The notes below the pieces were generated by a model, which made no database searches, had not been told where the DNA came from, and saw only the letters and a list, made by a program, of their open reading frames with translations. Below are positions 7,055 through 53,342 of a stretch of DNA of 64,000 nucleotides, in pieces. The position numbers and the translations under genes were made by a program. Within the stretch, counting starts at the first letter, position 1; each line of letters opens with the position of its first letter. This DNA comes from Rhodoferax sp. (GTDB lineage Bacteria; Pseudomonadota; Gammaproteobacteria; Burkholderiales; Burkholderiaceae_C): contig SSFF01000004.1 in the NCBI GenBank assembly GCA_008015235.1, positions 62,001 through 126,000 on the forward strand, written 5' to 3'.

Positions 7055-7110
7055 TCAAATTGGCATGTGGCCCGCTTGCAATATGCGCAGTTAGCTACCA
7101 AAAATGTAGC
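7055..7110 (-). repeat. dispersed comamonad palindromic element, copy 1 (intergenic)
   Basis: Read on the minus strand, this copy starts with the hairpin GCTAC...GTAGC (7110-7094), then TAACTGCGCATATTGCAAG, GCGGGCCACATGC and CAATTTG. It shares its order and spacing with the copies at 14892, 26393, 32314, 41289, 42081 and 53300. It lies between the crotonase start and the sdaA stop. Confidence 0.7.
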
Positions 7111-7113
7111 AAC

Positions 7114-8502
7114 TCAGCACTCCACGATATTCACTGCCAGGCCACCGCGCGCGGTTTCCTTGTACTTGGTCTTCATGTCGGCGCCGGTGTCGCGCATGGT
7201 CTTGATCACCTTGTCCAGGCTCACGAAGTGGCTGCCGTCGCCGCGCAGGGCCATGCGGGCGGCGTTGATGGCTTTGACCGAGGCAATGGCGTTGCGCTCG
7301 ATGCAGGGTATCTGCACCAGCCCGCCCACCGGGTCGCAGGTCAGGCCCAGGTGGTGCTCCATGCCGATCTCGGCAGCGTTTTCCACTTGCTCGGGCGTGC
7401 CGCCCAGCACCGCGCACAGGGCACCCGCCGCCATGGAGCAGGCCACGCCGACCTCGCCCTGGCAGCCCACCTCGGCCCCGCTGATGCTGGCGTTTTCCTT
7501 GTACAGGATGCCGATGGCCGCGGCCGTGAGCAGGAAGTCGTGCACGCCCTGCGCGGAGGCCTGGGGTACGAAGCGCGTGTAGTAGTGCAGCACGGCGGGA
7601 ATGATGCCGGCTGCGCCATTGGTCGGGGCCGTGACCACGCGGCCACCGGCGGCGTTTTCCTCGTTCACGGCCAGGGCGTAGAGGTTGACCCAGTCCAGCA
7701 CCTGCAGCGGATCGCGCAGGGCCTCCTCGGGCTTCGATGTAAGCGCGTCGCGCAGTGCCTTGGCACGGCGCTTGACCTTGAAGCCACCGGGCAGCACGCC
7801 CTCGGTGGCGCAGCCACGCGCCACGCAGGCCTGCATGACCTGCCAGATGCGCTCCAGCCCGGCGTCGATTTCGGCATCGCTGCGCCAGTGCTGCTCATTG
7901 CGCCGCATCACTTGGGCGATGGAGAGCCCCTGCGTTTTGCACACGGCCAGCAACTGGTCGCCGGTGGTGAAGGGCAGGGGCAGCACCGTGGCATCGGGTG
8001 CAATCACCTTATGGCGCGCCCCGTCGGCTGCCACCTCGTCGGTGACGATAAAGCCACCGCCCACCGAGTAGTAGGTGCGCTCGCACAGCGAGGCACCCGC
8101 CGCGTCCAGTGCTTCCAGCCGCATGCCGTTGGCGTGGAAGGGCAGGGCGGCGCGCATGAACAGCAGGTCGTCCTTCTCATGGAAGGCGATGGTGTGGCCG
8201 CCGGGCAAGGGGAGCTGCTTCTCAGTGCGCACCTGTGCCAGGTAAGCGGGAATGCGGTCCACGTCCACCGTGTCCGGCTCCAGCCCCATCAGGCCCAGCA
8301 GCACAGCGGTGTCGCTGCCGTGGCCCTTGCCGGTGGCCCCGAGCGAGCCATGCAGCCAGCAGCGCACCGTGGCGGTTTGCTTCAGCACGCCTTCGGCTTC
8401 AAGCTTGAGCGCAAACAGGCGCGCCGCCCGCATGGGGCCCACGGTGTGCGAACTGCTGGGGCCGATGCCGATCTTGAAAAGGTCGAAAACTGAAACTGCC
8501 AT
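7114..8502 (-). CDS. sdaA: L-serine ammonia-lyase (serine deaminase), iron-sulfur type
   Basis: This enzyme deaminates L-serine to pyruvate and ammonia using a [4Fe-4S] cluster. I chose the ATG at 8502 because [20 protein letters not shown] is the classical start; longer in-frame extensions run into dadA. The 462 residues contain the conserved [11 protein letters not shown], the [14 protein letters not shown] segment, the cysteine-bearing [17 protein letters not shown] and [17 protein letters not shown]. It lies 25 bases after dadA on the same strand, so it is the second gene behind the internal glycine riboswitch. In context it would drain serine made from glycine into pyruvate. Confidence 0.95.
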
Positions 8503-8527
8503 GGTGCTCCTCGTTGTAGTTTTTGGC

Positions 8528-9787
8528 TTAGGCCTGCAGTGCGAGTGTGACTGCAGGCGCGCGCTTTGCAAAGTGCTGCTGCACCTGCGCGGCGATCTGG
8601 TGGCCGGTGATGGCCGACAGCGTCCAGCCCAGGTGGCCGTGGCCGGTGTTATAGAACACATTGGCGCAGCGGCCCTGGCCCACGCGCGGCATCATGTTCG
8701 GCAGCATGGGGCGCAACCCGGCCCAGGGCTCGACGCGGCGGGTGGATACACCAGGGAAGCACTGGTTCACCCATTGAATGAGGGGGCGAATGCGGTCGGC
8801 GCGGATGTTCTGGTTCATGCCGTTGAATTCTGCGGTGCCGGCTACGCGGAAGCGGTCAGCCCCAAGGCGGCTGGTGACCAGCTTGGTCTCGTCGTCGAGC
8901 AGGCTGACCCAGGGTGCCGCCTGTTGGCTGGTTTCGTCCTGCAGGTGCACGGTGATGGAATAGCCCTTGACCGGGTAGATGTTGAGGCGGTCGCCCAGCT
9001 GCGCCGCTAGGCTGCGGCCCCAGACGCCAGCGCACACCACCACAGCGTCGAACTGTGCCTGCTGCGCGGCACCTTCTTCGCCTTGCAGCAGCAGGGTGCT
9101 GGTGCGGCCATCGGCCTGGGCACGCAGCACCTGGGTGCCGCGCAGAAAGCGCACACCCAGGCGTTCGCAGGCTTGTGACAGGCCATGGGTGAAGAGGTGG
9201 ATGTCGCCGGTGGAGTCGCTCTCGGTATAGAAGCCGCCGTAGTACTGCCCAGCCAGCGTGGGCTCAATGGCACGCATCTCGTCGGGTGTGACGGCGCGGC
9301 GCTCCAGCCCGCCCTGGGCCAGCAGCTGGGTCACGTTGGCGGCGTGGTCAAAGCCCTTCTTGTCGCGGTAGATGTGCAGGATGCCGCGGCGTTCGTGCTT
9401 GAAATCAATGCCTTCCGACTGCGCCCAGGCAAACAGGTGCTGGCGCGCTTCGATCGCCAGTTTCGTCGTGGCGATTGTGTTGTCGCGGTACTTGGGTAGG
9501 GCGGCGACAAACTCGGCCAGCCAGCTGAACTTGTGCCAGGTCGGCAGCGGGTTCATCAGCAGCGGCGCGTCGGGGGTGAACATCCACTTCAGGCCCTTGA
9601 TGAGGGTGCTGGGGTGGTTCCAGACCTCGGCGTTCGAGGCCGAGAGTTGCCCGCCGTTGGCGTAGGACGTTTCCATCCCGGCGTAGCGGTTTTTGTCGAT
9701 CAGGGTGACCTGGAAACCCTGTTGGGCCAGGGCGTAGGCGGTGGTGACACCGGTGATACCGGCGCCGATGACGGCGATGTGTTGCAT
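8528..9787 (-). CDS. dadA: FAD-dependent D-amino acid dehydrogenase (small subunit, DadA family)
   Basis: This membrane-associated flavoprotein oxidises amino acids to 2-oxo acids and passes electrons to the respiratory chain. The 419-residue product starts at the ATG at 9787 with the dinucleotide fold [21 protein letters not shown] (split here only as residues 4-24) and keeps DadA signatures such as [15 protein letters not shown] and [13 protein letters not shown] tandem glycine riboswitch and a terminator-like hairpin precede it, and sdaA follows. DadA usually acts on D-alanine and other D-amino acids; the riboswitch suggests that glycine itself may be a substrate, which is inference. Homologues are also annotated as D-amino acid dehydrogenase in unrelated contexts. 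Confidence 0.92.
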
Positions 9788-9811
9788 GCTGCACTCTCTT
9801 TGAGACTGTCC

Positions 9812-9855: not shown

Positions 9856-9859
9856 CCCT

Positions 9860-10052
9860 CTGTTTTGAGACCTGAGAGATTCACGCCTGCCTTGCGGTGG
9901 GCGTTTGCTCCTGCGGTGAGCCGGGGGACAAGTCCCGGCCGCTCTTCAGAGTGCAATGCTTGAAAACGGTCCTTTTGCCTGAGAGTTTCCGGGGCGGTTG
10001 CTCCTTCGGCGCTGCTGCTGCGTTTGCAACGGCAGTCTCTTCCGTTTTCAAC
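9860..10052 (-). promoter_or_regulatory. tandem glycine riboswitch upstream of dadA-sdaA
   Basis: Two glycine aptamers lie in series on the minus strand. Aptamer 1 (about 10050-9961) is closed by GAAAACGG pairing with CCGTTTTC and contains GGAAGAGAC, GCCGAAGGAGCAA and AAACTCTCAGGCAAAAGGAC, which are the conserved glycine-aptamer segments. Aptamer 2 (about 9955-9862) contains CTGAAGAGCGGC, GCAGGAGCAAACGCC and AATCTCTCAGGTCTC. Tandem glycine aptamers usually activate genes for glycine degradation. It begins about 45 bases after the ltaE stop, so it can act on read-through transcripts as well as on its own promoter. Confidence 0.92.
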
Positions 10053-10097
10053 AAGGCAGCGGCTTGCAAACTTCCGCTGCCCGTAAAAAATCCGTTC

Positions 10098-11159: not shown

Positions 11160-11176
11160 GTTGCTTCGGTACGGTT

Positions 11177-14080
11177 TTAGCTGTTGGCGTATTCGCCCAC
11201 GGGCACGCAGCTGCAGAACAGGTTGCGGTCGCCGTAGACGTTGTCGACGCGGCCCACGCTGGGCCAGTATTTGCCGGCCTTGAGGCTGGCCACCGGGAAG
11301 GCGGCCTGCTCGCGGCTGTAAGGGTGGGCCCAGTCACCGGCCACCACGCTGGCGGCGGTGTGCGGTGCGTTCTTGAGCACGTTGCCTTCCTGGGGCATGG
11401 CGCCGCTTTCCACCTGGGCGATCTCGCCACGAATGGCGATCATGGCGTCGATGAAGCGGTCCAGCTCGGCCAGGGTCTCGCTCTCGGTGGGCTCCACCAT
11501 CAGGGTGTTGGGCACCGGGAAGGACAGCGTGGGGGCATGGAAGCCATAGTCCATCAGGCGCTTAGCCACGTCTTCGGCCATGACGCCGCAGGTTTCCTTG
11601 AAATGGCGCAGGTCCAGGATGCACTCGTGGGCCACGTGGCCGTTCTCGCTGGCGTAGAGCGTGGGGTAATGGTCTTTGAGGCGGGTGCTGATGTAGTTGG
11701 CCGCCAGGATGGCCGATTCGGTGGCTTGCTTGAGGCCTTCGGCGCCCATCATGCGGCAGTACATCCAGCTGATGGGCAGTACAGCGGCGTTGCCCAAGGG
11801 CGCGGCCGACACGGCACCGGTTTTGCTGGCGATGCCACCGGTGGCATGGCCCGGCAGGAAGGGCACCAGGTCTTCGACCACGCACACGGGGCCGACACCG
11901 GGGCCACCACCGCCGTGGGGGATGCAGAAGGTCTTGTGCAAGTTCAGGTGGCTGACGTCACCGCCGAACTGGCCGGGGGCGGCCACGCCCACCAGGGCGT
12001 TCATGTTGGCGCCGTCCACGTAGACGCGGCCGCCGTGGCTGTGCACCAGAGCGCACAGTTCTTTCACCGTGGTTTCAAACACGCCGTGCGTGCTGGGGTA
12101 AGTGATCATGATGGCGGCCAGGTTGGCGCTGTGCTTTTCGCAGGCGGCCTTGAGGTCGTCCATGTCCACGTTGCCGTTGGCATCGCACTTGGTCACCACC
12201 ACCTGCATGCCAACCATCATGGCGCTGGCCGGGTTGGTCCCGTGCGCGCTGGAGGGGATCAGGCAGATGTTGCGGTGGCTTTCACCGCGGCTGGCGTGCC
12301 AGCCCTTGATGGCCAGCAGGCCGGCGTATTCACCTTGGCTGCCCGCATTGGGCTGCAGGCTGATGCCAGCGTAGCCGGTGGCAGCGCACAGCCAGTCGCG
12401 CAGCTGCTGGTCCAGCAAGGCATAGCCTTCGCGCTGGTCGGCCGGGCAGAAGGGGTGAATGTTCGCAAACTCGGGCCAGGTGATGGGAATCATCTCGCTG
12501 GTGGCGTTGAGTTTCATGGTGCAGGAGCCCAGCGGAATCATGCTGCGGTCCAGCGCCAGGTCTTTGTCCGACAGCATGCGGATGTAGCGCAGCATGCCGG
12601 TCTCGGAGTGGTGGGTGTTGAACACCGGGTGCGTCAGGTAGCTGCTTACGCGTTGCAGGCTGGCCGGGATCAGGGCGGGCGCCGTGGCAGCAAGCGCTTC
12701 CACGTTCGGCAGGGCTTGGCCCGGTTCAGCGAAGAACGACCAGACCAGTTCCAAGTCGGCGCGGGTGGTGGTTTCGTCGAGCGAAACGCAGATCGCATTT
12801 TCACGTGCAATTCGCACGTTAGCCCCCGCAGACAGTGCGCGGGCAGCTATTGTTTTTGTAGCATCTGCGGTCGGGATGCAGAGCGTGTCGAACGCGGTGC
12901 CGTGCAGCGGGGCAAAGCCCAGTTGGCGCAGGCCTTGGGCCAGGATGGCGGTGTAGGTGGCTACGCGCTGGGCAATGCGCTTCAAACCGGCCGGGCCGTG
13001 GTACACGGCGTACATGCTGGCGATGACGGCTGGCAGCACCTGCGCGGTGCAGATGTTGGAGGTGGCTTTTTCGCGGCGGATGTGCTGTTCGCGGGTCTGC
13101 AGGGCCAGGCGGTAGGCCGGGTTGCCGTGGCTGTCCACGCTCACGCCCACCAGGCGGCCAGGCATGGAGCGCTTGTATTCGTCGCGGCAGGCCATGAAGG
13201 CGGCGTGCGGGCCACCGGCGCCGAAGGGCATGCCGAAACGCTGGGTCGAGCCAATGGCAATGTCCGCACCCATTTCACCCGGGGCCTTGAGCACGGTCAG
13301 GGCCAGCAGGTCGCAGGCCAGGATCAGGGCAGCGCCCTTGCTGTGGATGGTGTCGGCGCTGAGCTGCCAGTCGGCCAGCCAGCCGCTGGAGCCGGGGTAC
13401 TGGTTCAGGGCCGCGAAGTAGTCGTCAGCGGCAATGGCGGCCTGCCATTCGTCGCTGGAACGCACCACCTTCACGTTGTAGCCCAAGGGGGCGGCGCGGG
13501 TCTGGATGACTTCGATGGTCTGGGGGTGGCAGTCGCCGCTGACGATGAAGGTGTTGCCCTTGGCCTTGACCGAGCGCTTGGCCAGGGTCATGGCTTCGGC
13601 CGCGGCCGTGGCTTCGTCGAGCATGGAGGCATTGGCCATGGGCATGGCGGTGAGGTCCGCCACCATGGTCTGGAAGTTCACCAGGGCTTCCATGCGGCCC
13701 TGGGAAATTTCGGCCTGGTAGGGCGTGTAGGCGGTGTACCAGGCGGGGTTTTCCAGAATGTTGCGCAGGATCACGCCGGGGGTGTGGGTGCCGTAGTAGC
13801 CCTGGCCGATGAAGCTCTTGAAAATCTTGTTCTTCCCCGCCATGGCCTTCAGTTCAGCCAGCGCCGCAGCTTCGGTAATGGCTTCGGGGATCGCCATGCG
13901 ATCGGCACGGGCGATGGCGCGCGGCACCACGCCGTCGATCAGTTCTGCACGGGTCGCACAACCCACGGCGGCGAGCATGGTTTTCTCTTCATCGGCATCA
14001 AAGCCAATGTGGCGTGCAATGAATTCGCTGGTGTTTTCCAGGCTGGAAAGACTGGATGCAGGTGTGGCGTTGGCGGACAT
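11177..14080 (-). CDS. gcvP: glycine dehydrogenase (decarboxylating), P protein
   Basis: The P protein decarboxylates glycine with PLP and passes the methylamine to lipoylated GcvH. The 967-residue length is that of the fused single-chain form. Visible marks include the amino-terminal [31 protein letters not shown], the glycine-rich [10 protein letters not shown], and the PLP-lysine segment [15 protein letters not shown]. It is the third gene of gcvT-gcvH-gcvP; 96 bp separate it from gcvH. About residues 407-412 (DATKTI) coincide with a shortened copy of the dispersed palindromic element, whose hairpin is at 12846-12862. A very long open frame on the opposite strand is only its shadow. Confidence 0.97.
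12846..12862 (+). repeat. short palindrome of the dispersed element inside gcvP
   Basis: GCTATTGTTTTTGTAGC, followed by ATCTGCGG, matches only the hairpin end of the 57-bp element; the GCGGGCC core and AATTTGG tail are absent or eroded. It is read through in the gcvP frame. It is a partial match, so it could be coincidental. Confidence 0.4.
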
Positions 14081-14639: not shown

Positions 14640-15785
14640 TTAGCCGCGGTAGTAGCGGTTGGGCACGAAGGGCATGGCGCTCACGACCATGGGCACGGGC
14701 TTGCCGCGCACGATGGCTACGACCTTGCTGCCCAGCGCGCTGTGCGCCACGTCCACGTAGCCCATGGCCACGCATTGGTTGATGGTGGGGCCCAGCAGGC
14801 CACTGGTGACTTCGCCGATCTTGTTGCCAGCGCCGTCCTGCAGTTCGGTGTGTTCGCGCACGGGAATACGCTCCTGGGCCACCAGTCCTACGCGTTTTCG
14901 GGCTCCAGCCCGCGTGGAATCTGCGAGAGCAGCTAGTATTTTTGTAGCGCCTGGGAAGCCGCCTTCACGCGCACCGCCAGCGCGACGCACCTTTTGGATG
15001 GCCCACAAGAGGCTGGCTTCAACCGGGGTGGTGGTGGTGTCGATGTCGTTGCCATACAGGCACAGGCCGGCTTCCAGGCGCAGCGAATTGCGCGCACCCA
15101 AGCCGATGGGTTTGACTTCGGGTTGGGCCAGCAGGGCGCGCGCCAGGGCTTCGGCCTGGGATTCGTGCACGGAGATCTCGAAGCCGTCTTCGCCGGTGTA
15201 GCCGCTGCGGGTCAGGAATACGTCGATCTTCTTCGTGCCGGTATCCACGGTGAAGTTGCCGCCGGTCATGAACACGAGCTTTTCCACGCCAGGGGCCAGG
15301 CGCGACAGGGCAGTCACAGCCTGCGGGCCTTGCAGCGCCAGCAGGGCCATCTCGGGCATGGGGATGACTTGGCAGCGGGTGCCGATCTTGGCCTGGATGT
15401 GGGCGATGTCACCGACCTTGCAGGCGCCGTTGACGATGACGAAGATCTCGTTGTTGCCCTTGTTGAAGAACATCAGGTCGTCAATGATGGTGCCTTCCTC
15501 GGTGGTCAGCAGGCCGTAGCGCTGTTTGCCCACGGGCAGGTCGATTACGTCCACCGGCATCAGGGTCTCGAACGCGGCGGCGGCGTCAGGTCCGACCAGG
15601 CGCAACTGGCCCATGTGCGACACGTCAAACAGACCGGCGGCGTTGCGCGTGTGGTTGTGCTCGGCCATCAGCCCTGCGGGGTACTGCACGGGCATGGAGT
15701 AGCCGGCAAAAGGCACCATGCGCGCGCCAAGTTCAATGTGCAGAGCGTTGAGCGGGGTGGTCAACAGGGTTTGGTCAGCGGACAT
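14640..15785 (-). CDS. gcvT: glycine cleavage system T protein (aminomethyltransferase)
   Basis: GcvT moves the one-carbon unit from aminomethyl-GcvH to tetrahydrofolate and releases ammonia. I place the start at the ATG at 15785 with GGAGAGAAG upstream; the open frame extends into the riboswitch but is not coding there. The 381 residues contain [37 protein letters not shown] and [19 protein letters not shown], all standard. Residues about 280-298 ([17 protein letters not shown]) coincide with a full copy of the dispersed element at 14892-14948, before the conserved VGLV segment. It is the first gene of the operon. Confidence 0.96.
14892..14948 (-). repeat. dispersed palindromic element, copy inside gcvT
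   Basis: On the minus strand the hairpin GCTAC...CTAGC (14948-14932) is followed by TGCTCTCGCAGATTCCAC, GCGGGCTGGAGCC and CGAAAACG, in the same order as the other copies. The length is a multiple of three (57 bp), so the gcvT frame stays open. Confidence 0.65.
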
Positions 15786-15822: not shown

Positions 15823-15865
15823 AGGGCAACCTGAATCTCGCGGCCCCAAATGGTGCCGAGAGGCT

Positions 15866-16110
15866 GCCCCCTGTCCCTTGTACCTGAGAGATTCGCCGGG
15901 CCTGCATGCACGCGGGGTGCGCAGACTGCGGTTTGCTCCTTCGGTGGGTTGCCGCACATCGGTGATGCGTCGTGCAACCTCTCTCCAGTGGGTGTCGCTG
16001 CACACACGCGGTGCGCAGCGTTGGTCAGTCCTTTTGCCTGAGCGTTCAGACGGCTGCAATCAACCATCCTGCGCCTTCGGCGATCCCCGTAGGGGATTCT
16101 CTCCTGACGA
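15866..16110 (-). promoter_or_regulatory. tandem glycine riboswitch upstream of gcvTHP
   Basis: Aptamer 1 (about 16108-16020) begins GTCAGGAGAGAATCCCC, contains CGCCGAAGGCGCAGGA and ends TCTGAACGCTCAGGCAAAAG GACTGAC, with GTCAG closing against CTGAC. Aptamer 2 (about 15990-15866) contains CACTGGAGAGAGG, CACCGAAGGAGCAAACC and GCGAATCTCTCAGGTACAAG. These are the conserved glycine-binding segments in both units. The gcv operon is the classic target of this class, normally switched on by glycine. It occupies most of the gap between gcvT and plsC. Confidence 0.94.
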
Positions 16111-16183
16111 AGCCGCAATTCTAAGCGAGAAGGCCAGCCCGTACACTCTGCGCCTTCCTTCACCCGACCACTTTGGGAGTTTG

Positions 16184-18774: not shown

Positions 18775-19557
18775 ATGGCGTACAGCATTGATCTTTCCGG
18801 CCGTGTGGCCTTTATTACCGGTGCGTCGGGTGGTTTGGGCGCGCAGTTCGCGCGCACGCTTTCGCAGGCAGGGGCGGCCGTGGTGTTGGCCAGCCGTCGC
18901 GTGGACAAGCTCAAGGAATTGCGCTCGATTATCGACGCAGAAGGGGGTGATGCCCACGTCATCGAAATGGATGTGACAGACCACGACTCCATCAAGGCCG
19001 CCGTGGCCCACGCTGAGACGGAAGTTGGGTCGATTGACATCCTTATCAACAACTCGGGCGTCAGCACCACCCAGCGCCTGCAGGACGTGCAGCCCGATGA
19101 CTACGACTTCATCTTCAACACCAACGTCAAAGGTGCTTTTTTTGTGGCGCAAGAGGTGGGCAAGCGCATGCTGGCGCGTGCCAAAGGCGCTGCACCGGGT
19201 AGCTACACCGGCGGACGCATTGTCAACATTGCTTCCATGGCGGGATTGCGCGTGCTGCCGCAAATCGGTGTCTACTGCATGAGCAAGGCGGCAGTCATCC
19301 AGATGACCAAGGCCATGGCGCTGGAATGGGGCAAGTTCGGCATCAACGTCAATGCCCTGTGCCCAGGCTATATCGACACCGAAATCAACCACCACCACTG
19401 GCAAACCGAGGCCGGGCAGAAGCTGGTGCAGATGCTGCCGCGCAAACGCGTGGGACACCCTGCGGACCTGGACGCCATGCTGGTGGCCCTGTGTTCGGAC
19501 CAGAGCCACTTCGTTAATGGCGCCGTGATTGCCGCCGATGACGGCTTTGGCGTCTGA
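18775..19557 (+). CDS. SDR-family oxidoreductase (3-oxoacyl-ACP/3-hydroxyacyl-CoA type)
   Basis: This 260-residue classical short-chain dehydrogenase binds NAD(P) through TGASGGLG (15-22) and shows NNSGV (92-96). Its catalytic Tyr167 and Lys171 lie in VYCMSKAAV, with Ser154 in NIASMAG. The carboxyl end resembles 3-oxoacyl-ACP reductases. Substrate is unknown; the divergent ETF-QO gene and the intervening operator point to lipid or acyl-CoA metabolism. The ATG at 18775 is 20 bp from the inverted repeat. Confidence 0.85.
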   Translation: MAYSIDLSGRVAFITGASGGLGAQFARTLSQAGAAVVLASRRVDKLKELRSIIDAEGGDAHVIEMDVTDHDSIKAAVAHAETEVGSIDILINNSGVSTTQRLQDVQPDDYDFIFNTNVKGAFFVAQEVGKRMLARAKGAAPGSYTGGRIVNIASMAGLRVLPQIGVYCMSKAAVIQMTKAMALEWGKFGINVNALCPGYIDTEINHHHWQTEAGQKLVQMLPRKRVGHPADLDAMLVALCSDQSHFVNGAVIAADDGFGV

Positions 19558-19577
19558 TCGATTTGGTTTCTGCATAA

Positions 19578-19621
19578 AAAAAGCTGCCTGCCCTTGTAGT
19601 TCAAGCGCAGGCAGCTCTCTT
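19578..19621. terminator. bidirectional terminator between the two SDR genes
   Basis: AGCTGCCTGC (19582-19591) pairs perfectly with GCAGGCAGCT (19607-19616), preceded by an A-run and followed by CTCTTTTT. It separates two convergent genes. Confidence 0.8.
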
Positions 19622-19635
19622 TTTCATAGCGAATT

Positions 19636-20394
19636 TCAGCGTGGAGCGAGGCGGATGGCACCGTCCAGGCGGATGACCTCGCCGTTGAGCATGTCGTTCT
19701 CAAAAATGTGCACGGCCAGTTTGGCGTAGTCCTGGGGGGTGCCCAGGCGCGAGGGGAAGGGCACACCAGCGGCCAACGCGTCCTGTACTTCCTTGGGCAT
19801 GCCAAACAGCATGGGAGTGCCGAAGATGCCGGGGGCGATGGTCATGTTGCGGATGCCGTTGCGCGACAGGTCGCGGGCGATGGGAAGGGTCATGCCCACA
19901 ATGCCACCCTTGGAGGCCGAGTAGGCGGCCTGGCCGATCTGGCCATCGTACGCAGCCACCGAGGCGGTGGAGATCATCACGCCACGCTCGCCCGTGGCTT
20001 CGGCTTCGTTCTTGCACATGGCTTCGGCTGCCAGGCGGATCATGTTGAAGCTGCCCACCAGGTTGACGGTAATGCACTTGCTGAAGGCGGCCAGGGCATG
20101 GGCGCCGTTCTTGCCCACGGTTTTTTCAGCCGGGGCGATGCCGGCGCAGTTCACCAGGCCCATGAGCTTGCCCATGGAGACTGCCTGGGCCACCACTGCC
20201 TGGCCATCGGCTTCGCTGCTGACATCGCACTTCACGAAGGCGCCGCCGATTTCCTTGGCAACCGCCTCGCCTTTCTCGGCCTGCATGTCGGCAATGACGA
20301 CCTTGCCACCCTTGGCGGCCAGCATGCGGGCCGTGCCTTCGCCCAGACCCGATGCGCCACCGGTGACGATGAATACTTTGCCTGCGATTTCCAT
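19636..20394 (-). CDS. SDR-family 3-hydroxyacyl-CoA dehydrogenase (type II/HSD10-like)
   Basis: This 252-residue NAD-dependent short-chain dehydrogenase resembles mammalian HSD10 and bacterial 2-methyl-3-hydroxybutyryl-CoA dehydrogenases. It has [15 protein letters not shown] from residue 11, [14 protein letters not shown] (82-95), Ser142 in [15 protein letters not shown], and Tyr158/Lys162 in YSASKGG. The ending [17 protein letters not shown] is typical of this group. The likely role is oxidation of 3-hydroxyacyl-CoA in fatty-acid or isoleucine breakdown. A 16-bp palindrome lies 36 bp before the start. Confidence 0.88.
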
Positions 20395-25260: not shown

Positions 25261-26721
25261 TCAGCTCTGTTTTAGCAGTTCGGAGGCCGGCAGTACGCTG
25301 CTGCCTGCTTCGCGCTGCGCTGCCAGCCCGTGGCGGTAGACCGCAGCGCAGGCCGCTTCGAAAGCCGGCAGGCCTGCGGCCAAGTGGGCGCCGACCATGC
25401 CGGCCAGCACATCACCCGTACCGCCAGTGGCCAGCCGGGCATTGCCCGTGGGGTTGATGCGTGGTGTGGCACCTGGTGCCGCAATCACCGTCCCCGAACC
25501 TTTGAGTACCACCGTGGCCTGCAAGCTGTCGGCCAGTGTCTGGGTCGCTTGCAGGCGTTGCGCCTGCACCTGCGCGGTGTTGGTGCCCAGCAGCCGTGCA
25601 GCCTCCAAGGGGTGAGGGGTCAGTACGGTGGCAGCGGCTGTCCGTTGGCTGGCGCGAGCGCGCAGGGCATCTTGCAGCCCAGGGTCGGCGGCTAGGGCGT
25701 TGAGGGCATCGGCATCCAGCACCAGGTGGGCGCTGTCCTGAAGCAGCGCGGGCAACTGGGCGGCAATGCGTTCGCCACCGCCACAACCGGCCACCACGGT
25801 AAGCTGTTGCCACACCAGGCCTTGCACTGGGCGAAACATCAGTTCCGGTTGCAGGGGGTCCAGGCGTGGGGCTTGCGGGTCCAGGGCCGCCACATACACA
25901 CGCCCGGCACCACTGTGCAGGGCCGCGCGTGCAGCCAGTAGCGCGGCACCGAGCATGCCCTCCATGCCACCGACCACGGCCACATCGCCGTAGCTGCCTT
26001 TGTGGCTGGCATGCAGCCGCTGCAGGGGGCGTGGTGCTGGGTTCAGTTCGGCGGTCGGGGGGAGGGCGGTGTCGGCTCCGAGTGCGTCCAGCCAGATGTC
26101 GCCGCAGGCGTCACGCCCTTGGCCAGTGAAAAGCCCGGGCTTCAGACCCATGAACGTCAGCGTGGCCGTGGCGCGCACCGCAGTGGGCATGGCCTGGCCA
26201 CTGTCGGTGTCGAGCCCACTGGGGCAGTCGACCGCAACAATAGGTTTGCCGCTGGCGTGCATGGCTTGTACCCACTGGGCATGTTCGTCACCAAGTGCCC
26301 GTTGCAGTCCAATGCCGAACAGGGCATCGACAGCGACATCGAACTCGGCCGGCACGGTGTTGCCAATGGGCACCCCGGCAGCCCGCGATTTTGCTATAGA
26401 TTTGGAAGCGTCCTGCGCATATTCTGTGCGGGCCAGGTGGCTAATTTGCACATTTTTCCCCCAGGCTTTCAGGTGCACGGCTGCTTCAAAGCCGTCGCCA
26501 CCGTTGTTGCCGGGGCCGCAGGCAATCCAGACCGTGCGTGCATGGGGCGCCAAGGCCATGACCAGGCGGGCCAGTGAAAGTCCTGCGCGCTGCATCAGGG
26601 TGTGCGGCGCCAAGGTGGCTGCGGTATGCGCTTCGATGGCGCGAATCTGGTCCACGCTGTAGAGCGGCCTGCTCGCGTCGCAGGCCATCCGGCCAGCGGC
26701 CAGAATGCGCTCAGAACTCAA
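25261..26721 (-). CDS. nnrD: bifunctional NAD(P)H-hydrate epimerase / ADP-dependent dehydratase
   Basis: This enzyme repairs damaged NADHX and NADPHX. The amino-terminal half is the epimerase (YjeF_N; GPGNNGGDG at 69-77, then VDCPSGLDTDSG). The carboxyl half is the dehydratase, with VLTPHPLEAARLLG and GTGDVLAGMVGAHLAAG. I use the TTG at 26721 because AGGGAGA lies five bases before it; this overlaps the upstream gene by 11 bases, suggesting coupling. An ATG at 26688 is the alternative. Residues about 91-110 (VQISHLARTEYAQDASKSIA) are encoded by a copy of the dispersed palindromic element. Confidence 0.92.
   Translation of the reverse strand: MSSERILAAGRMACDASRPLYSVDQIRAIEAHTAATLAPHTLMQRAGLSLARLVMALAPHARTVWIACGPGNNGGDGFEAAVHLKAWGKNVQISHLARTEYAQDASKSIAKSRAAGVPIGNTVPAEFDVAVDALFGIGLQRALGDEHAQWVQAMHASGKPIVAVDCPSGLDTDSGQAMPTAVRATATLTFMGLKPGLFTGQGRDACGDIWLDALGADTALPPTAELNPAPRPLQRLHASHKGSYGDVAVVGGMEGMLGAALLAARAALHSGAGRVYVAALDPQAPRLDPLQPELMFRPVQGLVWQQLTVVAGCGGGERIAAQLPALLQDSAHLVLDADALNALAADPGLQDALRARASQRTAAATVLTPHPLEAARLLGTNTAQVQAQRLQATQTLADSLQATVVLKGSGTVIAAPGATPRINPTGNARLATGGTGDVLAGMVGAHLAAGLPAFEAACAAVYRHGLAAQREAGSSVLPASELLKQS
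26393..26450 (+). repeat. dispersed palindromic element, copy inside nnrD
   Basis: The plus strand reads GCTATAGATTTGGAAGC, TCCTGCGCATATTCT, GTGCGGGCCAGGTGGC and TAATTTGC, the same order as the other copies though with a degenerate hairpin. It lies in the epimerase domain and keeps the frame open. Confidence 0.7.
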
Positions 26722-30872: not shown

Positions 30873-30916
30873 CCTGGATCAGCGCTGTAGTGGCGGTGCG
30901 CGGGATAATTGGGCCC

Positions 30917-32293
30917 ATGACACTCCGTACCCCTGAACTCCTGGCACCGGCGGGCTCGCTGGAAATGCTCAAAACGGCATTTGCCTTTGGCGCCACCGCA
31001 GTCTACGCGGGCCAACCCCGCTACTCCCTGCGCGTGCGCAACAACAGCTTTGGCAGCCTGGACGTGCTGAAACAAGGCATCGACCACGCCCACGAAAAAG
31101 GCGGCAAGTTCTTCCTGGTTTCCAACCTGATCCCGCACGACGCCAAGCTCAAACACTACGTGGCCAATATGGACCCGGTGATTGCCTTGAAGCCCGACGC
31201 AATGATCATGTCCGACCCCGGCCTCATCATGATGGCGCGTGAAGCTTGGCCCGACATGGAAATCCACCTTTCGGTGCAGGCCAACACCGTGAACTCGGCC
31301 GCGGTCAAGTTCTGGCAGAAGGTGGGCATCCGCCGCGTCATCCTCTCGCGCGAACTCTCGCTGGACCAAGTTGCCCAAATCCGCCAGGAATGCCCGGACA
31401 TGGAGCTGGAGGTGTTCGTGCACGGTGCGCTGTGCATTGCGTTCTCAGGCCGCTGCCTGCTTTCGGGCTACTTCAACCACCGCGACGCCAACCAAGGCAC
31501 CTGCACCAATGCCTGCCGCTGGGACTACAAGACCCACGCGGCCGAAGTCGATGCCAGCGGTGATGTGCTCAGCCCACCGGTGAGTAGCGGTGGCGGTTGC
31601 GCCAGCCACGGCGGCGGCCAGACCCTGCCCGAAGAAGCCCGCAACTCCATTTCGTACCTGCTCGAAGAAAGTAACCGCCCCGGCGAGTTCATGCCCATCG
31701 AGGAGGACGAGCACGGCACCTACATCATGAACTCCAAGGACCTGCGTGCCATCGAGCACATCCAGCGTCTGGTGGAGATTGGTGTGGACAGCCTCAAGAT
31801 CGAAGGCCGCACCAAGAGCCCCTACTACGTGGCCCGCACCTGCCAGAGCTACCGCGCAGCCATCGACGACGCCGTGGCCGGGCGCGAACTCAACCCCGTG
31901 CTGCTGGGCCAGCTCGATGGCCTGGCCAACCGCGGCTACACCAGCGGCTTCTTCCAGCGCCACACGCCCGAAGCCACACAGAACTACCTGCGCGGCTTCT
32001 CGGAAAGCGGGCGCAGCCAGTACGTGGGCGATGTGCTGGAGTACGACGCCGCACGCGGCCTGGCCAAGGTCAATGTGCGCAACAAGTTTGCCGTGGGTGA
32101 CTGGCTGGAGATATTGCACCCCAGCGGCAACTTCGACGTGCAACTCACTCGCATGGAGAACGCCGATGCGGCCGAGGTGCAGGTGGCGCCGGGCAGCGGC
32201 CACACCATGTGGATTCCCTTGCCCGAAACCGCCGTGGGCGCCTTCGTGGCGCGCTACCTGACTGCGCGCGAAGAGGCCGCGCTGCCAACCTGA
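30917..32293 (+). CDS. trhP: tRNA 5-hydroxyuridine modification protein TrhP (peptidase U32 family, YegQ)
   Basis: TrhP hydroxylates wobble uridine 34 of tRNAs using prephenate-derived chemistry; the family was formerly called peptidase U32. The 458-residue length and close match to E. coli YegQ favour TrhP over the longer RlhA. Signatures are LAPAGSLEMLKTAFAFGATA, the cysteine cluster CIAFSGRCLLSGYFNHRDAN and GTCTNACRWDY, EDEHGTYIMNSKDLRAI, and SLKIEGRTKSPYYVART. A Ser/Gly-rich insert (PPVSSGGGCASHGGGQ, about 220-235) sits where E. coli has an unrelated loop. The ATG at 30917 follows a GATAAT-like -10. Confidence 0.92.
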   Translation: MTLRTPELLAPAGSLEMLKTAFAFGATAVYAGQPRYSLRVRNNSFGSLDVLKQGIDHAHEKGGKFFLVSNLIPHDAKLKHYVANMDPVIALKPDAMIMSDPGLIMMAREAWPDMEIHLSVQANTVNSAAVKFWQKVGIRRVILSRELSLDQVAQIRQECPDMELEVFVHGALCIAFSGRCLLSGYFNHRDANQGTCTNACRWDYKTHAAEVDASGDVLSPPVSSGGGCASHGGGQTLPEEARNSISYLLEESNRPGEFMPIEEDEHGTYIMNSKDLRAIEHIQRLVEIGVDSLKIEGRTKSPYYVARTCQSYRAAIDDAVAGRELNPVLLGQLDGLANRGYTSGFFQRHTPEATQNYLRGFSESGRSQYVGDVLEYDAARGLAKVNVRNKFAVGDWLEILHPSGNFDVQLTRMENADAAEVQVAPGSGHTMWIPLPETAVGAFVARYLTAREEAALPT

Positions 32294-32398
32294 ACCCCGG
32301 TGGAGTTGGGGTCGCTATGTTTGTTATAGCTGCTTGCGTAATATTTATGCGGGCCAGAGGCTAATTTGGCATCTAATTGGGTCTGAAATGGGCCCCGC
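32294..32398. other. short gap between trhP and AlkD-like gene
   Basis: Apart from the element copy at 32314-32370 I see nothing here. No other gap exceeds about 300 bases without a listed feature; the larger ones (9788-10097, 15786-16183, 20395-20722, 22613-22971) hold riboswitches, operators, terminators or tRNAs. Confidence 0.6.
32314..32370 (+). repeat. dispersed palindromic element, intergenic copy after trhP
   Basis: This is the best-preserved copy: GCTATGTTTGTTATAGC, TGCTTGCGTAATATTTAT, GCGGGCCAGAGGC and TAATTTGGC. It lies in the 105-bp gap between convergent trhP and the AlkD-like gene, where it may also form the transcript end. Confidence 0.8.
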
Positions 32399-33112
32399 TT
32401 ATCCGTGGGCCATGTAGGCAGTGCGCACGGGTGCAGCCAGCTTTTCCAGTGCGTAGCGCAGCATGGTGCGCGGCATCTTTACAGCGTGGGCGTCCAAAAA
32501 GGCACGCAGTACGGTTTCATCGCGCTTGCCCACCTCGCGCAGCATCCAGCCGCAGGCCTTGTGCATCAGGTCTTCGCGGTCTGCCAGCAGCAGTTCACAC
32601 AGGCGCAGCGTATCGGCAAAGTCGCCCGCGCGGATGAACGCGAAGGTGGCCAAGACCGCGATGCGCCGGTCCCACAGTGACTTGGAGTTCACCAATTCGT
32701 AGAGCAGCGCACGGTCACGCTGCAGCAAATGCCCGCCGACGATGGCCGGGGCGGAAGCGTCCACCAGGTTCCAGTTGTTCACCCGGCTGCGTTGCGCCAG
32801 GTAGGCATCGAAGATGGCCTGCTGCTCGGCTTCGGATGCGCGCTTGCGCTGGTATTGCGCTCCCAAAATCAGCAAGGCCAGCAGGCGTGCCTCGTTGTAG
32901 GGCGACTGCAACAGCGCCACGCAGTCAGGGACGGGCAGGGTGCGGTACTGGGCCAGCACGCTGCGTACCTGCGGCACCGACAGGCCCAAAAACTGGTCCC
33001 CTTCGCCATATTGGCCGGGGCCGCATTTGAAAAAGCGCTGGAAGAACGCGGCCTTGTCCGGGTCGCGCAGGGATTCGAGGGCGTGCAGGGCATCGGTGGC
33101 GTTGGTGTTCAT
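32399..33112 (-). CDS. DNA alkylation repair protein (AlkD-like, ALK/HEAT repeats)
   Basis: This 237-residue all-helical protein resembles AlkD glycosylases, which remove bulky N3 and N7 alkyl-purines with HEAT-like repeats. Visible signatures are GVSVPQVR-type QFLGLSVPQVRSV (about 42-54), NNWNLVDASAPAIVG (about 112-126), SLWDRRIAVLATFAFI and DLMHKACGWMLREVGKRD. The ATG at 33112 gives MNTNATDALHAL. It stands alone between convergent trhP and the LysR gene. Family members with this motif set are often annotated only as DNA alkylation repair protein. Confidence 0.88.
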   Translation of the reverse strand: MNTNATDALHALESLRDPDKAAFFQRFFKCGPGQYGEGDQFLGLSVPQVRSVLAQYRTLPVPDCVALLQSPYNEARLLALLILGAQYQRKRASEAEQQAIFDAYLAQRSRVNNWNLVDASAPAIVGGHLLQRDRALLYELVNSKSLWDRRIAVLATFAFIRAGDFADTLRLCELLLADREDLMHKACGWMLREVGKRDETVLRAFLDAHAVKMPRTMLRYALEKLAAPVRTAYMAHG

Positions 33113-40498: not shown

Positions 40499-42481
40499 TC
40501 ACCGCCCCCGCAAGAACAGCCCATCCAGCTCCTTCATGCTGAGCTGGCGCCAGGTGGGGCGGCCGTGGTTGCACTGGTCACTCCGTTCCGTTTCTTCCAT
40601 CTGGCGCAGCAGGGCGTTCATTTCTTCGAGGGTCAGGCGGCGGTTGGCGCGCACGGCGCCGTGGCAGGCCATGGTGGCCAGCAGTTCGTTGTGGGCGCGC
40701 TGGAGCACGGTGCTGGCGTCGTGGGTGGCCAGTTCGGCCAGCACGCTGCGCGCCAGTTCCACGGCGTTGCCTTGGGCCAAGGAGCTGGGCACGGCGCGCA
40801 CGGCCAGGGTCTTGGCCGAGAACGGCGACACTTCCAGCCCGAGCTGGTGCAAGGCCTCGACATGGGCCTCTGCTGTGGCCACTTCCTCGGGCGTGGCGGC
40901 AAAAGTGGCAGGCACCAGCAGCGGCTGGCTCGGGATGGCTTTGGCACTGCCATCGGTGCCGAGCTGCTTCTTCAGGCGTTCGTAGACGATGCGCTCGTGC
41001 GCGGCGTGCATGTCCACCAGCACCAAGCCCTGGGCGTTTTCGGCCAGGATGTAGACGCCGTGCAGCTGGGCAATGGCGCGGCCCAGGGGCCAGATTTGCG
41101 CGGGGCTGCTGGGAGGCCAAGGGTTTTGCTCCGTGTCCCCCGCACGCTGCGCGTGCTCCTCCTTAACCTGCGCAAAACCCTGGGCCTCCCAGCCGCTGGA
41201 GGCGCCGGTGTCGGGGCTGGACCGCCACAGGGCGCCCACGTCTTCGACCCGGTGCTGCACCATGCTTGGCGCGTAGCTACCGCCAGTCGCTACGAAATTC
41301 ATAGCTGTCTGTGCACGGTATTCGCGGGCCAGAGGCTGATTTGGCTCTGAAAATGCGGTCTGGACCGAACTCGATGCCACTTCGGCCAAAGTCGGCTGCT
41401 GGGGCACAGCGCTGCCTGCCAGCGCCGAGCGCGGCGCCGCCAGTGCGTTTTCCACGGCGTGGCGCACGGCCTGGTGCACTTCGCGGCTGTCGCGGAAACG
41501 CACCTCGATCTTGGTGGGGTGCACGTTCACGTCCACACGTGTGGGGTCCATTTCCACATACAGGGCGTACACCGGCTGCTTGTGGCCGTGCAGCACGTCT
41601 TCATAGGCGCTGCGGGCGGCGTGGGTCAGTACCTTGTCGCGCACAAAACGGCCGTTGACGTAGCAGAACTGCTGGTCGGCGCGCGAGCGCGCGGCGTCGG
41701 GCACACCGGCGCGGCCCCACACCCGCACCGGCACACCGTTGGCGCCGGTGGTTTGGAAATCGACTTCGACCGACTGTTCCAGAAACTCGGCCCCCAACAC
41801 GTCGCGTAGGCGCTGGGCCAGGGCGGCGCTGGGTTCGGACGCGGTGGTGCGGCGCCACTGTTCGACCAGCTTGCCTTCGCTCCAGATGGCAAAGCCCACG
41901 TCGGGCCGCGCCAGGGCGTGGCGGCGCACGGCTTCCACGCAGTGGGCCAGCTCGGTGGCGTCGGTCTTCAGGAACTTGCGCCGCGCCGGGGTGCTGAAGA
42001 ACAGTTCCTTCACTTCCACCGTGGTGCCTGTGGCGCGGGCCACAGGGCGCAGTTCGCCGGTGCGGCCGTCCAACAAATAGGCATCATTTATGCCGCTAGC
42101 CCGCGAAAGTATTGCGCAGTCAGCTATGGAGTTGATAGCAGCCAGGGCCTCGCCGCGAAACCCCATGGTGGCCACCGACTCCAGCTCGGACAAGTTGGCA
42201 ATCTTGCTGGTGGCGTGGCGCTTGAATGCGATGGGCAGTTCGTCGCGCAATATGCCGGCGCCGTCGTCCTCCACGCTGATCAGGCGCACGCCTCCGGCCA
42301 GCAGGCGCACGGTAATCTGGCTGGCCCCGGCGTCCAGCGCGTTGTCCACCAGTTCGCGCACCACCGAAGCGGGGCGTTCCACCACTTCACCGGCGGCAAT
42401 CTGGCTGATGAGCTCGTCGGGTAGCTCGCGGATCGGTCGGCGTTGGGGCGGTGGCGTGGGGGGCAGGGCAGGGGCGTTCAC
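40499..42481 (-). CDS. mutL: DNA mismatch repair protein MutL
   Basis: MutL couples MutS mismatch recognition to MutH or nicking and UvrD. The 660-residue protein starts at a GTG (42481). The GHKL ATPase domain shows LISQIAAGEVVERPASVVREL, DNALDAGA, EDDGAGI and TMGFRGEALAAI. The transducer domain follows, then a linker, and the carboxyl dimerisation domain contains DMHAAHERIVYERL and ATMACHGAVRANR. Two copies of the dispersed element are read in frame: about residues 115-134 just after GFRGEAL, and about 379-398 in the linker. The carboxyl end abuts the low-GC cassette-like patch. Confidence 0.96.
   Translation of the reverse strand: MNAPALPPTPPPQRRPIRELPDELISQIAAGEVVERPASVVRELVDNALDAGASQITVRLLAGGVRLISVEDDGAGILRDELPIAFKRHATSKIANLSELESVATMGFRGEALAAINSIADCAILSRASGINDAYLLDGRTGELRPVARATGTTVEVKELFFSTPARRKFLKTDATELAHCVEAVRRHALARPDVGFAIWSEGKLVEQWRRTTASEPSAALAQRLRDVLGAEFLEQSVEVDFQTTGANGVPVRVWGRAGVPDAARSRADQQFCYVNGRFVRDKVLTHAARSAYEDVLHGHKQPVYALYVEMDPTRVDVNVHPTKIEVRFRDSREVHQAVRHAVENALAAPRSALAGSAVPQQPTLAEVASSSVQTAFSEPNQPLAREYRAQTAMNFVATGGSYAPSMVQHRVEDVGALWRSSPDTGASSGWEAQGFAQVKEEHAQRAGDTEQNPWPPSSPAQIWPLGRAIAQLHGVYILAENAQGLVLVDMHAAHERIVYERLKKQLGTDGSAKAIPSQPLLVPATFAATPEEVATAEAHVEALHQLGLEVSPFSAKTLAVRAVPSSLAQGNAVELARSVLAELATHDASTVLQRAHNELLATMACHGAVRANRRLTLEEMNALLRQMEETERSDQCNHGRPTWRQLSMKELDGLFLRGR
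41289..41345 (+). repeat. dispersed palindromic element, copy in mutL linker
   Basis: The plus strand reads GCTACGAAATTCATAGC, TGTCTGTGCACGGTATTC, GCGGGCCAGAGGC and TGATTTGGC. The 57-bp copy encodes about NQPLAREYRAQTAMNFVA on the mutL strand, inside the variable linker. Confidence 0.75.
42081..42139 (-). repeat. dispersed palindromic element, copy in mutL ATPase domain
   Basis: On the minus strand GCTATCAACTCCATAGC (42139-42123), TGACTGCGCAATACTTTC, GCGGGCTAGCGGC and ATAAATGATGCC follow the shared order. It encodes about INSIADCAILSRASGINDAY, directly behind the conserved GFRGEALA motif. Confidence 0.7.
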
Positions 42482-42525
42482 CCGAAGGATTTTAGGGGGA
42501 TGGGGGGCGGGGATAATCCGCCCCC

Positions 42526-45637: not shown

Positions 45638-45638
45638 T

Positions 45639-49312: not shown

Positions 49313-49318
49313 GCACGC

Positions 49319-51264: not shown

Positions 51265-52374
51265 AGCTCTCCATTAGACGGCCAAGAACTCATGGCACAC
51301 ATCCGTGCCTGGGCTCTGGAACTCGGATTCTCCCAAATTGGCGTGGCCGGTGTCGATCTTTCCTCCAGCGAGCCCGGTTTGCTGGCCTGGCTGGACCAGG
51401 GGTTCCATGGCGACATGCACTACATGGCCGCCCACGGCCTCAAGCGCGCCCGCCCTATGGAGCTGGTGCCCGGTACCGTGTGCGTGCTCACCGCGCGCAT
51501 GGATTATCTGCCGCGCGGCACGGCACCGGACTGGGCCGAACAGGAGCTGGCGCGGCTGCAGACGCCCACCCAGGGCGTGGTGTCGGTCTATGCCCGCGGG
51601 CGGGACTACCACAAGGTGCTGCGCAGCCGCCTGCAAAAGCTGGCCGACAAGATTGCCGAAGTGCTGGGGCCCGTGGGCCACCGCGTGTTCACCGACTCGG
51701 CCCCGGTACTGGAAGCCGAACTGGCCGCGCGCAGCGGCCAGGGCTGGCGCGGCAAGCACACGCTGCTGCTGAGCCGCGAGGGTGGCTCCATGTTCTTCCT
51801 TGGCGAGATCTACCTCGACTTTGCGCTGCCCTTGTCGGAGCCCACCAGCCACCACTGTGGCCAATGCACGGCCTGCATCAGTGCCTGCCCTACCGGGGCC
51901 ATCGTGTCGCCGGGCAAGCTCGACGCACGGCGCTGCATTTCCTACCTGACCATAGAGCACGCAGGGCCCATTCCCGAAGACCTGCGCCCGCTGCTGGGTA
52001 ACCGCATCTACGGCTGCGACGACTGCCAGCTGGTGTGCCCCTGGAACAAGTTCGCCCAGCCCAGTGCCTTGCCTGACTTCGACGCCCGCGCGCCAGTGCA
52101 GCCCCAGGACCTGCTGGCATTTTTCGCCTGGACCGAGGCCCAGTTTCTGGCGCACACCGAAGGCAGCCCAATCCGGCGCATCGGCCATGCGCGCTGGATT
52201 CGCAATGTGGCCGTGGCCCTGGGCAATGCGCTGCGCCAGCCAACTCTGGACGCGGACGTGACCCAACGCATCCGCCAGGCCTTGCAGCAGCGCCTGCAGG
52301 AGGCCGACGCCGTGGTGGCCGAACATGTGCAGTGGGCCTTGGCGCAGGGGCCTGCCCAGGAGGAGGGGCTTTGA
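51253..52374 (+). CDS. queG: epoxyqueuosine reductase QueG
   Basis: QueG reduces epoxyqueuosine to queuosine in tRNA using cobalamin and two [4Fe-4S] clusters. I give the GTG at 51253 (373 residues) because homology to E. coli starts upstream of the ATG at 51292 (SPLDGQELMAHIRAW resembles PLDLNQLAQKIKQW); the shorter 360-residue form is possible. The two cluster motifs are HHCGQCTACISACPTGAI and CDDCQLVCPWNK. The GTG start overlaps the divergent tsaE start by 12 bases, and a TACAAT box lies at 51241. It overlaps xerD by four bases. Confidence 0.93.
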   Translation: MTLHSSPLDGQELMAHIRAWALELGFSQIGVAGVDLSSSEPGLLAWLDQGFHGDMHYMAAHGLKRARPMELVPGTVCVLTARMDYLPRGTAPDWAEQELARLQTPTQGVVSVYARGRDYHKVLRSRLQKLADKIAEVLGPVGHRVFTDSAPVLEAELAARSGQGWRGKHTLLLSREGGSMFFLGEIYLDFALPLSEPTSHHCGQCTACISACPTGAIVSPGKLDARRCISYLTIEHAGPIPEDLRPLLGNRIYGCDDCQLVCPWNKFAQPSALPDFDARAPVQPQDLLAFFAWTEAQFLAHTEGSPIRRIGHARWIRNVAVALGNALRQPTLDADVTQRIRQALQQRLQEADAVVAEHVQWALAQGPAQEEGL

Positions 52375-53273
52375 GCGCAGCAGCGAACCAGGCGCTGGTG
52401 GACCAGTTCATCGACGCCCTGTGGCTCGAAGATGGCCTGGCGCGCAACACCCTGGACGCCTACCGGCGCGATCTGCAGCTGTTTTGCCACTGGCTGCAGG
52501 GGCGTAAACTGGCCGCGGTGGTGGAGGGCGATTTGCACGCCTACTTTGCCCACCGCCATGCCGCCACCCGCGCCACCACGGCCAACCGGCGCCTGACTGT
52601 GTTCAAGCGCTTTTTCCTGTGGGCGCTGCGCGAGAAGCTGGTGCTGGCCGACCCCACACTCAAGCTGCGCGCGGCCAAGCAGCCGCTGCGCGTGCCCAAG
52701 ACCCTGACCGAAGCCCAGGTCGAGGCGCTGCTTAATGCCCCGGACACCAGCACCGCTTTAGGCGTGCGCGACCGCACCATGCTGGAGCTGATGTACGCCA
52801 GCGGCCTGCGCGTGAGCGAGCTGGTGGACCTGCGGGTGTTTCAGCTCGGCCTGAATGACCACGTGCTGCGTGTGACTGGCAAAGGTTCCAAGGAGCGAAT
52901 GGTGCCTTACGGCGAGGTGGCGGGGCAGTGGCTGCAGCGTTACCTGAACGATGCCCGCAAGGAACTTCTGGCCGGGCAGCAGTCGGACGATTTGTTTGTG
53001 ACCGTGCGTGGGCAAAACGCAGGCAGCGCGATGTCGCGCGTGATGTTCTGGATGCTGGTGAAGAAGTACGCGCTGCTCGCGGGCATCCGCACGCCCTTGT
53101 CACCACACACTCTGCGCCATGCCTTTGCCACCCATCTGCTCAACCACGGGGCTGACCTGCGGGCGGTGCAGATGCTGCTGGGGCACGCCGACATTTCCAC
53201 CACCACCATCTACACCCATGTGGCGCGTGAACGCCTTGCTGCATTGCATGCCCAGCACCACCCGCGTGGCTGA
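52371..53273 (+). CDS. xerD: tyrosine recombinase XerD
   Basis: XerD, with XerC, resolves chromosome dimers at dif. The start TTG at 52371 has AGGAGG eight bases upstream and overlaps the queG stop (TTGA). The 300-residue protein has the full tyrosine-recombinase set: Arg147 (ASGLRVSEL), Lys171 (GKGSKER), His246 and Arg249 (HTLRHAF), His272 (GHADIS) and nucleophile Tyr281 (TIYTHV). Length and motif spacing match the housekeeping enzyme rather than an integrase. Confidence 0.92.
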   Translation: MSAAANQALVDQFIDALWLEDGLARNTLDAYRRDLQLFCHWLQGRKLAAVVEGDLHAYFAHRHAATRATTANRRLTVFKRFFLWALREKLVLADPTLKLRAAKQPLRVPKTLTEAQVEALLNAPDTSTALGVRDRTMLELMYASGLRVSELVDLRVFQLGLNDHVLRVTGKGSKERMVPYGEVAGQWLQRYLNDARKELLAGQQSDDLFVTVRGQNAGSAMSRVMFWMLVKKYALLAGIRTPLSPHTLRHAFATHLLNHGADLRAVQMLLGHADISTTTIYTHVARERLAALHAQHHPRG

Positions 53274-53299
53274 TGGATGCTCGGGTTTTGATGAAAGTG

Positions 53300-53342
53300 A
53301 CCGTTAGCCCGCGTATTCATTGCGCAGGCAGCTATCAATAGC
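53300..53342 (-). repeat. dispersed palindromic element, intergenic copy after xerD
   Basis: On the minus strand GCTATTGATAGC (53342-53331), TGCCTGCGCAATGAATAC and GCGGGCTAACGG follow the shared order; the tail to about 53285 is diverged. It lies between the convergent xerD and EAL-HDOD genes. Confidence 0.65.

Follow-up and report, generated by a model that had tools for sequence, protein, structure and literature searches.

Why should a long palindromic repeat recur inside housekeeping genes and leave their reading frames open? The question is raised by a stretch of 64,000 nucleotides from Rhodoferax sp. (contig SSFF01000004.1, positions 62,001 to 126,000; the whole stretch is referred to as the window), in which an earlier note, made from the letters alone, described a dispersed 57-bp palindromic element and likened it to the Rickettsia palindromic elements (RPEs). 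The element is a member of a real and large repeat family that is undescribed in the literature searched; what surprises most is how it is kept up within coding DNA. The reading preferred here, to which we give about an even chance of being right, is that the element is a DNA recognition site for a putative lineage-specific factor and has been spread by copying.

A covariance model was trained on 34 copies, eight from the window and 26 of 30 fetched pattern matches (L005, L011, L019 and L024 were dropped by eye), which align gap-free over 69 columns. In 464 kb of the genome this model gave 60 matches at E ≤ 0.01, with GC contents of 35-58%, and the 51 copies that score 25 bits or more (16 coding, 35 intergenic) define a unit of about 69 bp, not 57 bp, with an information content of about 60 bits. 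The information begins four bases 5' of GCTA and stops at AA(A/T), roughly at columns 66-68; beyond both edges it is approximately zero, the same in coding and intergenic copies. The consensus in the Rhodoferax sp. genome is AnTTGCTATnAATTTnATAGCTnCCTGCGCAATnTnTATGCGGGCnAGAGGCCnATTTGGCnTnnAAnn. The element reads as a tandem row of three dyads whose arms are 7 bp apart (columns 5-21, 24-48 and 55-69): D1, GCTAY-N7-RTAGC; D2, which reads CTAGCGCTT-N7-AAGCGCTAG in other genera and is degenerate in the Rhodoferax sp. genome (CCTGCGCAA...TGCGGGCTAG); and D3, ATTT-N7-AAAT. The dialects of the element differ between genera. The matches in the window are the following:

7046..7114, minus strand: full element, intergenic, 65.3 bits; starts at the stop codon of gene 7114-8502 (minus strand), on the same strand as that gene
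12798..12866, minus strand: full element in gcvP, 57.3 bits; sense, codon frame 0; one residue more than solved GcvP
14884..14952, minus strand: element in gcvT, 48.6 bits; sense, frame 0; three residues more within the copy than solved GcvT
19566..19634, minus strand: element between convergent genes 18775-19557 (plus) and 19636-20394 (minus), 36.5 bits; internal T-run, terminator-like
26389..26457, plus strand: element in nnrD (25261-26688, minus strand), 54.0 bits; antisense; 0-1 residue difference from solved NnrD
32310..32378, plus strand: full element between convergent genes 30890-32293 (plus) and 32399-33112 (minus), 67.1 bits
41285..41353, plus strand: full element mutL-2 in mutL (40499-42481, minus strand), 67.7 bits; antisense; in the variable linker, residues 377-399
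42075..42143, minus strand: full element mutL-1, the N-terminal copy in mutL, 58.5 bits; sense, frame 0; over the conserved GFRGEALAxI...SR, residues 113-136; gap-free
53283..53351, minus strand: full element between convergent genes, 60.2 bits; starts at the stop codon of 53351-54604 (minus strand)
62372..62440, minus strand: weak element in a coaBC-type flavoprotein gene (61598-62824, plus strand), 22.5 bits, E 5e-5; antisense
59789-59857: marginal match, 18.3 bits
50112: non-significant match, 14.2 bits, E 0.065

The general picture of the earlier note, a dispersed family frequently in frame within housekeeping genes and in either orientation, is borne out, and its seven full copies lie at the places and in the orientations that it gave. 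Its inventory needs amendment elsewhere: the clear copy at 19566-19634 had been overlooked, the supposed lone hairpin at 12846 is part of the full copy inside gcvP, that at 62420 is a copy, albeit a weak one, rather than a hairpin only, and the match at 50112 falls away. An Rfam search of the window gave no gathering-level match that overlaps a copy of the element; in 41000-42500 there were only weak matches below the cut-offs. Three glycine riboswitch aptamers lie in the window (9957-10054, 15861-15998 and 16016-16116), two of them directly upstream of the element-bearing gcvT. At window 19566-19634, as well as at loci L010 and L017, the element merges with a strong terminator-like stem and T-run, as though a terminator had evolved from the element or the element from a terminator.

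The search with the covariance model that the earlier note had proposed revealed many further copies. At least 150 places were found in the 3.65-Mb genome, the weakest of those at E 2.3e-11, and extrapolation from the 464 kb gives about 400-470 copies per genome. The strict pattern GCTAYN7RTAGCN3CNGCGC has 50 matches in the same genome, against one for a reversed control. A matrix built from the 35 intergenic copies alone adds two places, at 39 and 34.5 bits, to the 60 matches, so the match list is incomplete. Among 61 genomes of the genus, 25 hold at least 67 model matches, eight hold 1-18 and 28 none (E ≤ 1e-6). Across the family, a strict pattern occurs in 61 of 250 genomes (53 with at least three matches) and in 35 of 126 genera, with up to 220 copies on both strands, and the reversed control gives 0-1 matches; bearing genera among the matches listed are Rhodoferax, Polaromonas, Acidovorax, Simplicispira, Curvibacter and Giesbergeria. 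The element family is thus patchy over the bacterial family. In a MutL phylogeny with 52 rows, the element label changes about eight times, at least five of these changes being forced by well-supported branches, and element-poor clades of the genus are interspersed with bearing ones. Judged by the names of the closest MutL sequences, the genome of the window is Rhodoferax/Curvibacter-like.

Some further observations concern the spread of copies. In G184, a genome in one contig, copies on the two strands are intermingled over the listed portion of its 135 places, and a replication-strand rule was rejected; regular spacing is not claimed (coefficient of variation 0.77 against 0.96 for random placement, P 0.059). 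Loci L156, L169, L170 and L174 of this genome belong to a subfamily of six or more copies that all have the spacer AAACTCA; certain members also share sequence further downstream, which suggests recent copying. In IMG/VR (L412-L472), the pattern was found in 61 stretches, with 53 model matches at E ≤ 0.001; these may be phage, prophage or host DNA alike. One copy compared with plasmids by distant BLAST, a weak method, gave a single short unrelated match.

The upkeep of the motif is most apparent at the level of individual letters. The intergenic-only matrix scores each of the 16 coding copies at 42-73 bits, and all 16 outscore all 4000 synonymous recodings. For mutL-1, gcvP and gcvT, third codon positions that match the motif at informative columns are retained in 106 of 151 cells in bearing relatives, but in only 26 of 142 in element-poor relatives, which have 0-9 model matches and a divergence similar to that of the bearing set: codon identity in the rest of the gene is 0.61 in bearing versus 0.58 in element-poor relatives for mutL, 0.68 versus 0.64 for gcvP and 0.65 versus 0.59 for gcvT. 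At low-information columns, the corresponding values are 0.74 and 0.59 for mutL-1 and 0.56 and 0.59 for gcvP, and non-matching informative columns are retained in 24 of 36 cases, with 66% expected. From this contrast between bearing and element-poor relatives, the motif seems to be maintained at the DNA level; the pooled p of 8.5e-20 is indicative only, because the species are not independent. An earlier retention test with an all-codon baseline, which was too coarse, gave an excess in gcvT alone. When antisense copies are compared with the expectation from the same codons elsewhere, a like tendency towards retention is seen for the copies in genes that we take to be dnaX and addA (z 4.7 and 3.8, respectively), but hardly for mutL-2 (z 1.3).

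How the element came to lie in these genes was addressed by protein length for nine of the 16 coding copies that reach 25 bits; the others are mutL-2 and six further copies, presumably in addA, dnaX, a coiled-coil protein gene, trmB, a DNA glycosylase gene and folP. One copy in moeA is a clean 75-nt in-frame insertion, adding 25 residues relative to E. coli MoeA: it is absent from all 11 aligned same-genus relatives (11 of 13 genomes searched), six of them bearing, each of which shows one 75-nt gap. By eye, the empty site has no clear target duplication in this single comparison, the relatives being too diverged for exact ends. Insertions are also apparent in GluQRS, which is 43 residues longer than the E. 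coli protein, and in a FemAB-like protein of 388 residues over 368 profile positions, about 20 extra. The copies in mutL-1, gcvP and nnrD and a second copy in moeA, however, differ by 0-1 residue from solved structures, and those in gcvT and murI by +3. The likeness to RPEs thus holds for at least one clean in-frame insertion, but insertion as a rule is not supported. The earlier note had taken identical residues in element-free relatives as a sign against the element. Such residues are present for mutL-1 and nearly so for gcvP (translated by eye), yet the nucleotides differ, and the element is therefore real and seems to overwrite codons. The mutL-1 peptide recurs in element-poor genomes of the genus and, in less similar form, in the family, so that its codons look rewritten with few residue changes. 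For the copies with a difference of 0-1 residue or of +3, too, existing codons look rewritten, which goes beyond insertion of the Rickettsia type. Between genome G001 (200 kb, 27 copies) and its sister species G007, 21 of 23 alignable orthologous stretches also score in G007, the other two G001 copies, both weak, face sub-threshold segments, and none of the 23 is a clean empty site.

Could the element nevertheless be an inert selfish palindrome of the RPE or MITE (miniature inverted-repeat transposable element) type, whose in-frame insertions into loops and linkers are tolerated and then decay neutrally? Both RPEs and the element are dispersed palindromic repeats that lie in frame within unrelated genes; RPEs measure about 150 bp and form ten families (PMC10969869), whereas the element has about 69 bp and three dyads, is found in Comamonadaceae, is partly length-neutral and shows motif-specific retention. 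The clean moeA insertion, the apparent ones in GluQRS and the FemAB-like protein and the copies that lie in protein linkers all speak for such an element, as does the open-frame bias: with genes called within the analysis itself, 20 of the 60 matches lie inside genes, ten of them sense (nine in frame 0) and ten antisense (eight in one frame), and stop codons account for part of this bias. Three findings argue the other way, and we consider this explanation unlikely: there are length-neutral copies where residues are conserved, the motif-specific retention is seen in bearing relatives and not in element-poor ones, and the comparison of the sister species gave no clean empty site. The placement of intergenic copies would fit an RNA element, with hairpins at transcript 3' ends acting in termination or mRNA protection, as proposed for repetitive extragenic palindromic sequences (REPs). 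Gene 3' ends and the spaces between convergent genes are enriched in the element, which is orientation-free: at a threshold of 25 bits, the 35 intergenic copies occur at 2.27 per kb between convergent genes, 0.63 between tandem and 0.30 between divergent ones, the upstream stop codon is no more than 30 nt away for 14 of the 17 copies between tandem genes, and some copies end in T-runs. Shuffles of the 34-copy alignment and D2 in G184, detailed below, likewise favour pairing. On the other hand, a third of the 60 matches are intragenic, in both orientations, the tandem intergenic copies are split into seven in the same and ten in the opposite orientation, and no covariation of D1 or D2 (two registers tested) was found in the Rhodoferax sp. 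genome. The innermost D1 pair is even under-represented in two sister species (paired in 17 of 51 copies, 26.5 expected), pairs changed on both sides were reached by 294 of 500 shuffles of the 34-copy alignment, and RNAalifold yields only seven pairs, none double-changed. The hairpin model was rejected for want of covariation in the Rhodoferax sp. genome, although the shuffles and G184 D2 lean the opposite way, and the mobile RNA hairpin of the earlier note is not supported; an RNA element appears quite improbable, and the dyads are predicted to be duplex-DNA recognition sites rather than hairpins.

Hundreds of short palindromic repeats are also the mark of REP and REPIN elements, which are mobilized by RAYT, the REP-associated tyrosine transposase. 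REPs are enriched at gene 3' ends, like the element. An origin of this type would be in keeping with the RAYT-like gene present at E ≤ 0.001 in all 14 bearing genomes searched (seven over the curated cut-off) and with GTAG in part of the copies. The gene, however, is found in 224 of the 250 family genomes, comprising 51 of 53 with at least three element matches and 173 of 197 others, and among its 15 loci in bearing genomes three have elements nearby, which does not exceed the density estimate; in the Rhodoferax sp. genome none lies near it. RAYT, the sole transposase family searched, was therefore rejected as a tracker of the element, being present with and without it and showing no proximity beyond density, and the associated transposase considered in the earlier note did not emerge. 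In structure, too, the three-dyad unit of 69 bp with its many coding copies departs from REPs, which have 20-40 bp (PMC3733652); there is no GTAG-tagged single hairpin, and the tag position is A or G. Mobilization by RAYT is accordingly very doubtful. We regard as remote the idea that the element is a DNA uptake sequence (DUS) or uptake signal sequence (USS) for natural transformation, spread by biased uptake. The hundreds of copies on both strands, the genus dialects and the frame preference in genes resemble such sequences, D1-like dyads are mildly in excess beyond full copies, and the hosts include genome-maintenance genes (mutL twice, and presumably addA, dnaX and a DNA glycosylase gene). 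Against it, uptake sequences are far shorter than this unit, and sub-motifs other than D1 have no excess outside full copies. Moreover, ComEC (PF03772) is detected in 55 of the 61 genus genomes, whether or not they bear the element, and four of the six genomes that have no ComEC match bear it, including G042 (99% complete, at least 83 element matches), on which ground ComEC, too, was rejected as a tracker.

Among described repeats, the element also resembles the Beta-proteobacterial repeat element (BRE), which is dispersed in Bordetella and Comamonadaceae, with some copies wholly intragenic, as is the case for the element; Bordetella BREs are mostly 75-91 bp long, with 69% GC on average and 1-29 tabulated copies per genome (PMC3110155). 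By length, GC content and counts, the only features compared with this source, the element differs, having about 69 bp, 35-58% GC and hundreds of copies. A second dispersed repeat lies in the mutL linker (window 41105-41196, residues 429-459), about 87 bp long with 69% GC and 25-nt inverted arms, and is matched at roughly 79-95% identity in many places across genomes of the genus; by size and GC content, BRE fits this repeat better than it fits the element (PMC3110155). The literature searched on BRE, RPE and REP/REPIN repeats, with most subscription papers outside its reach, contains no description of the element: a keyword check of PMC3733652, PMC12306157, PMC2817692 and PMC2267715 turned up none of the Comamonadaceae genera looked for, and the outline and abstract of the REPIN paper PMC3116915 do not describe it.

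If the element is a recognition site, the following sequence of events may be envisaged. A putative trans-acting protein would bind the element on duplex DNA. New copies would arise through ectopic copying of the unit, either by insertion or, where the target is already similar, by short-patch replacement, for which short-patch illegitimate recombination is a possible mechanism. Selection or recurrent conversion would then maintain the motif, and upon loss of the factor the copies would decay. More tentatively, and with somewhat less than an even chance, the element may represent an undescribed class of genome-wide cis-acting site of about 69 bp with three dyads, which is inserted and also overwrites codons length-neutrally, is kept letter-wise by selection or drive and is lost wholesale together with its putative cognate factor.

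Several observations weigh against a recognition site. No cognate protein was found among the RAYT and ComEC families tested or by eye in seven clusters of copies, where only ordinary genes were recognized from the first residues and no family search was made. A protein could locate 450 places with far less than 60 bits of information, a point in favour of plain copying. In gcvT, low-information columns are retained as well, in 28 of 50 cells (0.56) in bearing against six of 27 (0.22) in element-poor relatives, so that regional constraint contributes in this gene, and the kinship of the relatives makes the cell counts overstate independence. Between the orthologous copies of G001 and G007, identity is 626/733 (0.854) at informative columns, 627/843 (0.744) at other columns and 8083/9845 (0.821) in the flanks, a modest excess that is partly due to ascertainment in one species, and two pairs each way have segments that no longer score. 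In the 34-copy alignment, the share of paired cells is reached by nine and the covariation score by ten of 500 shuffles, D2 covaries weakly in G184 (z 3.5), and D1-like dyads alone are over-represented to the mild degree mentioned above.

Dispersed repeats of bacteria are usually dismissed as junk or taken for relics of mobile elements. In the present case, nature supplies the control in the form of close relatives that either carry or lack the whole element family, and the difference between them points towards active maintenance of a long DNA motif, even within conserved regions of genes such as mutL. As the trait changes repeatedly on the tree, the missing cognate factor should be findable via gene-content comparison. 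From the length-neutral copies it would follow that codons, and a few residues, can be reshaped by a mobile or driven motif without insertion.

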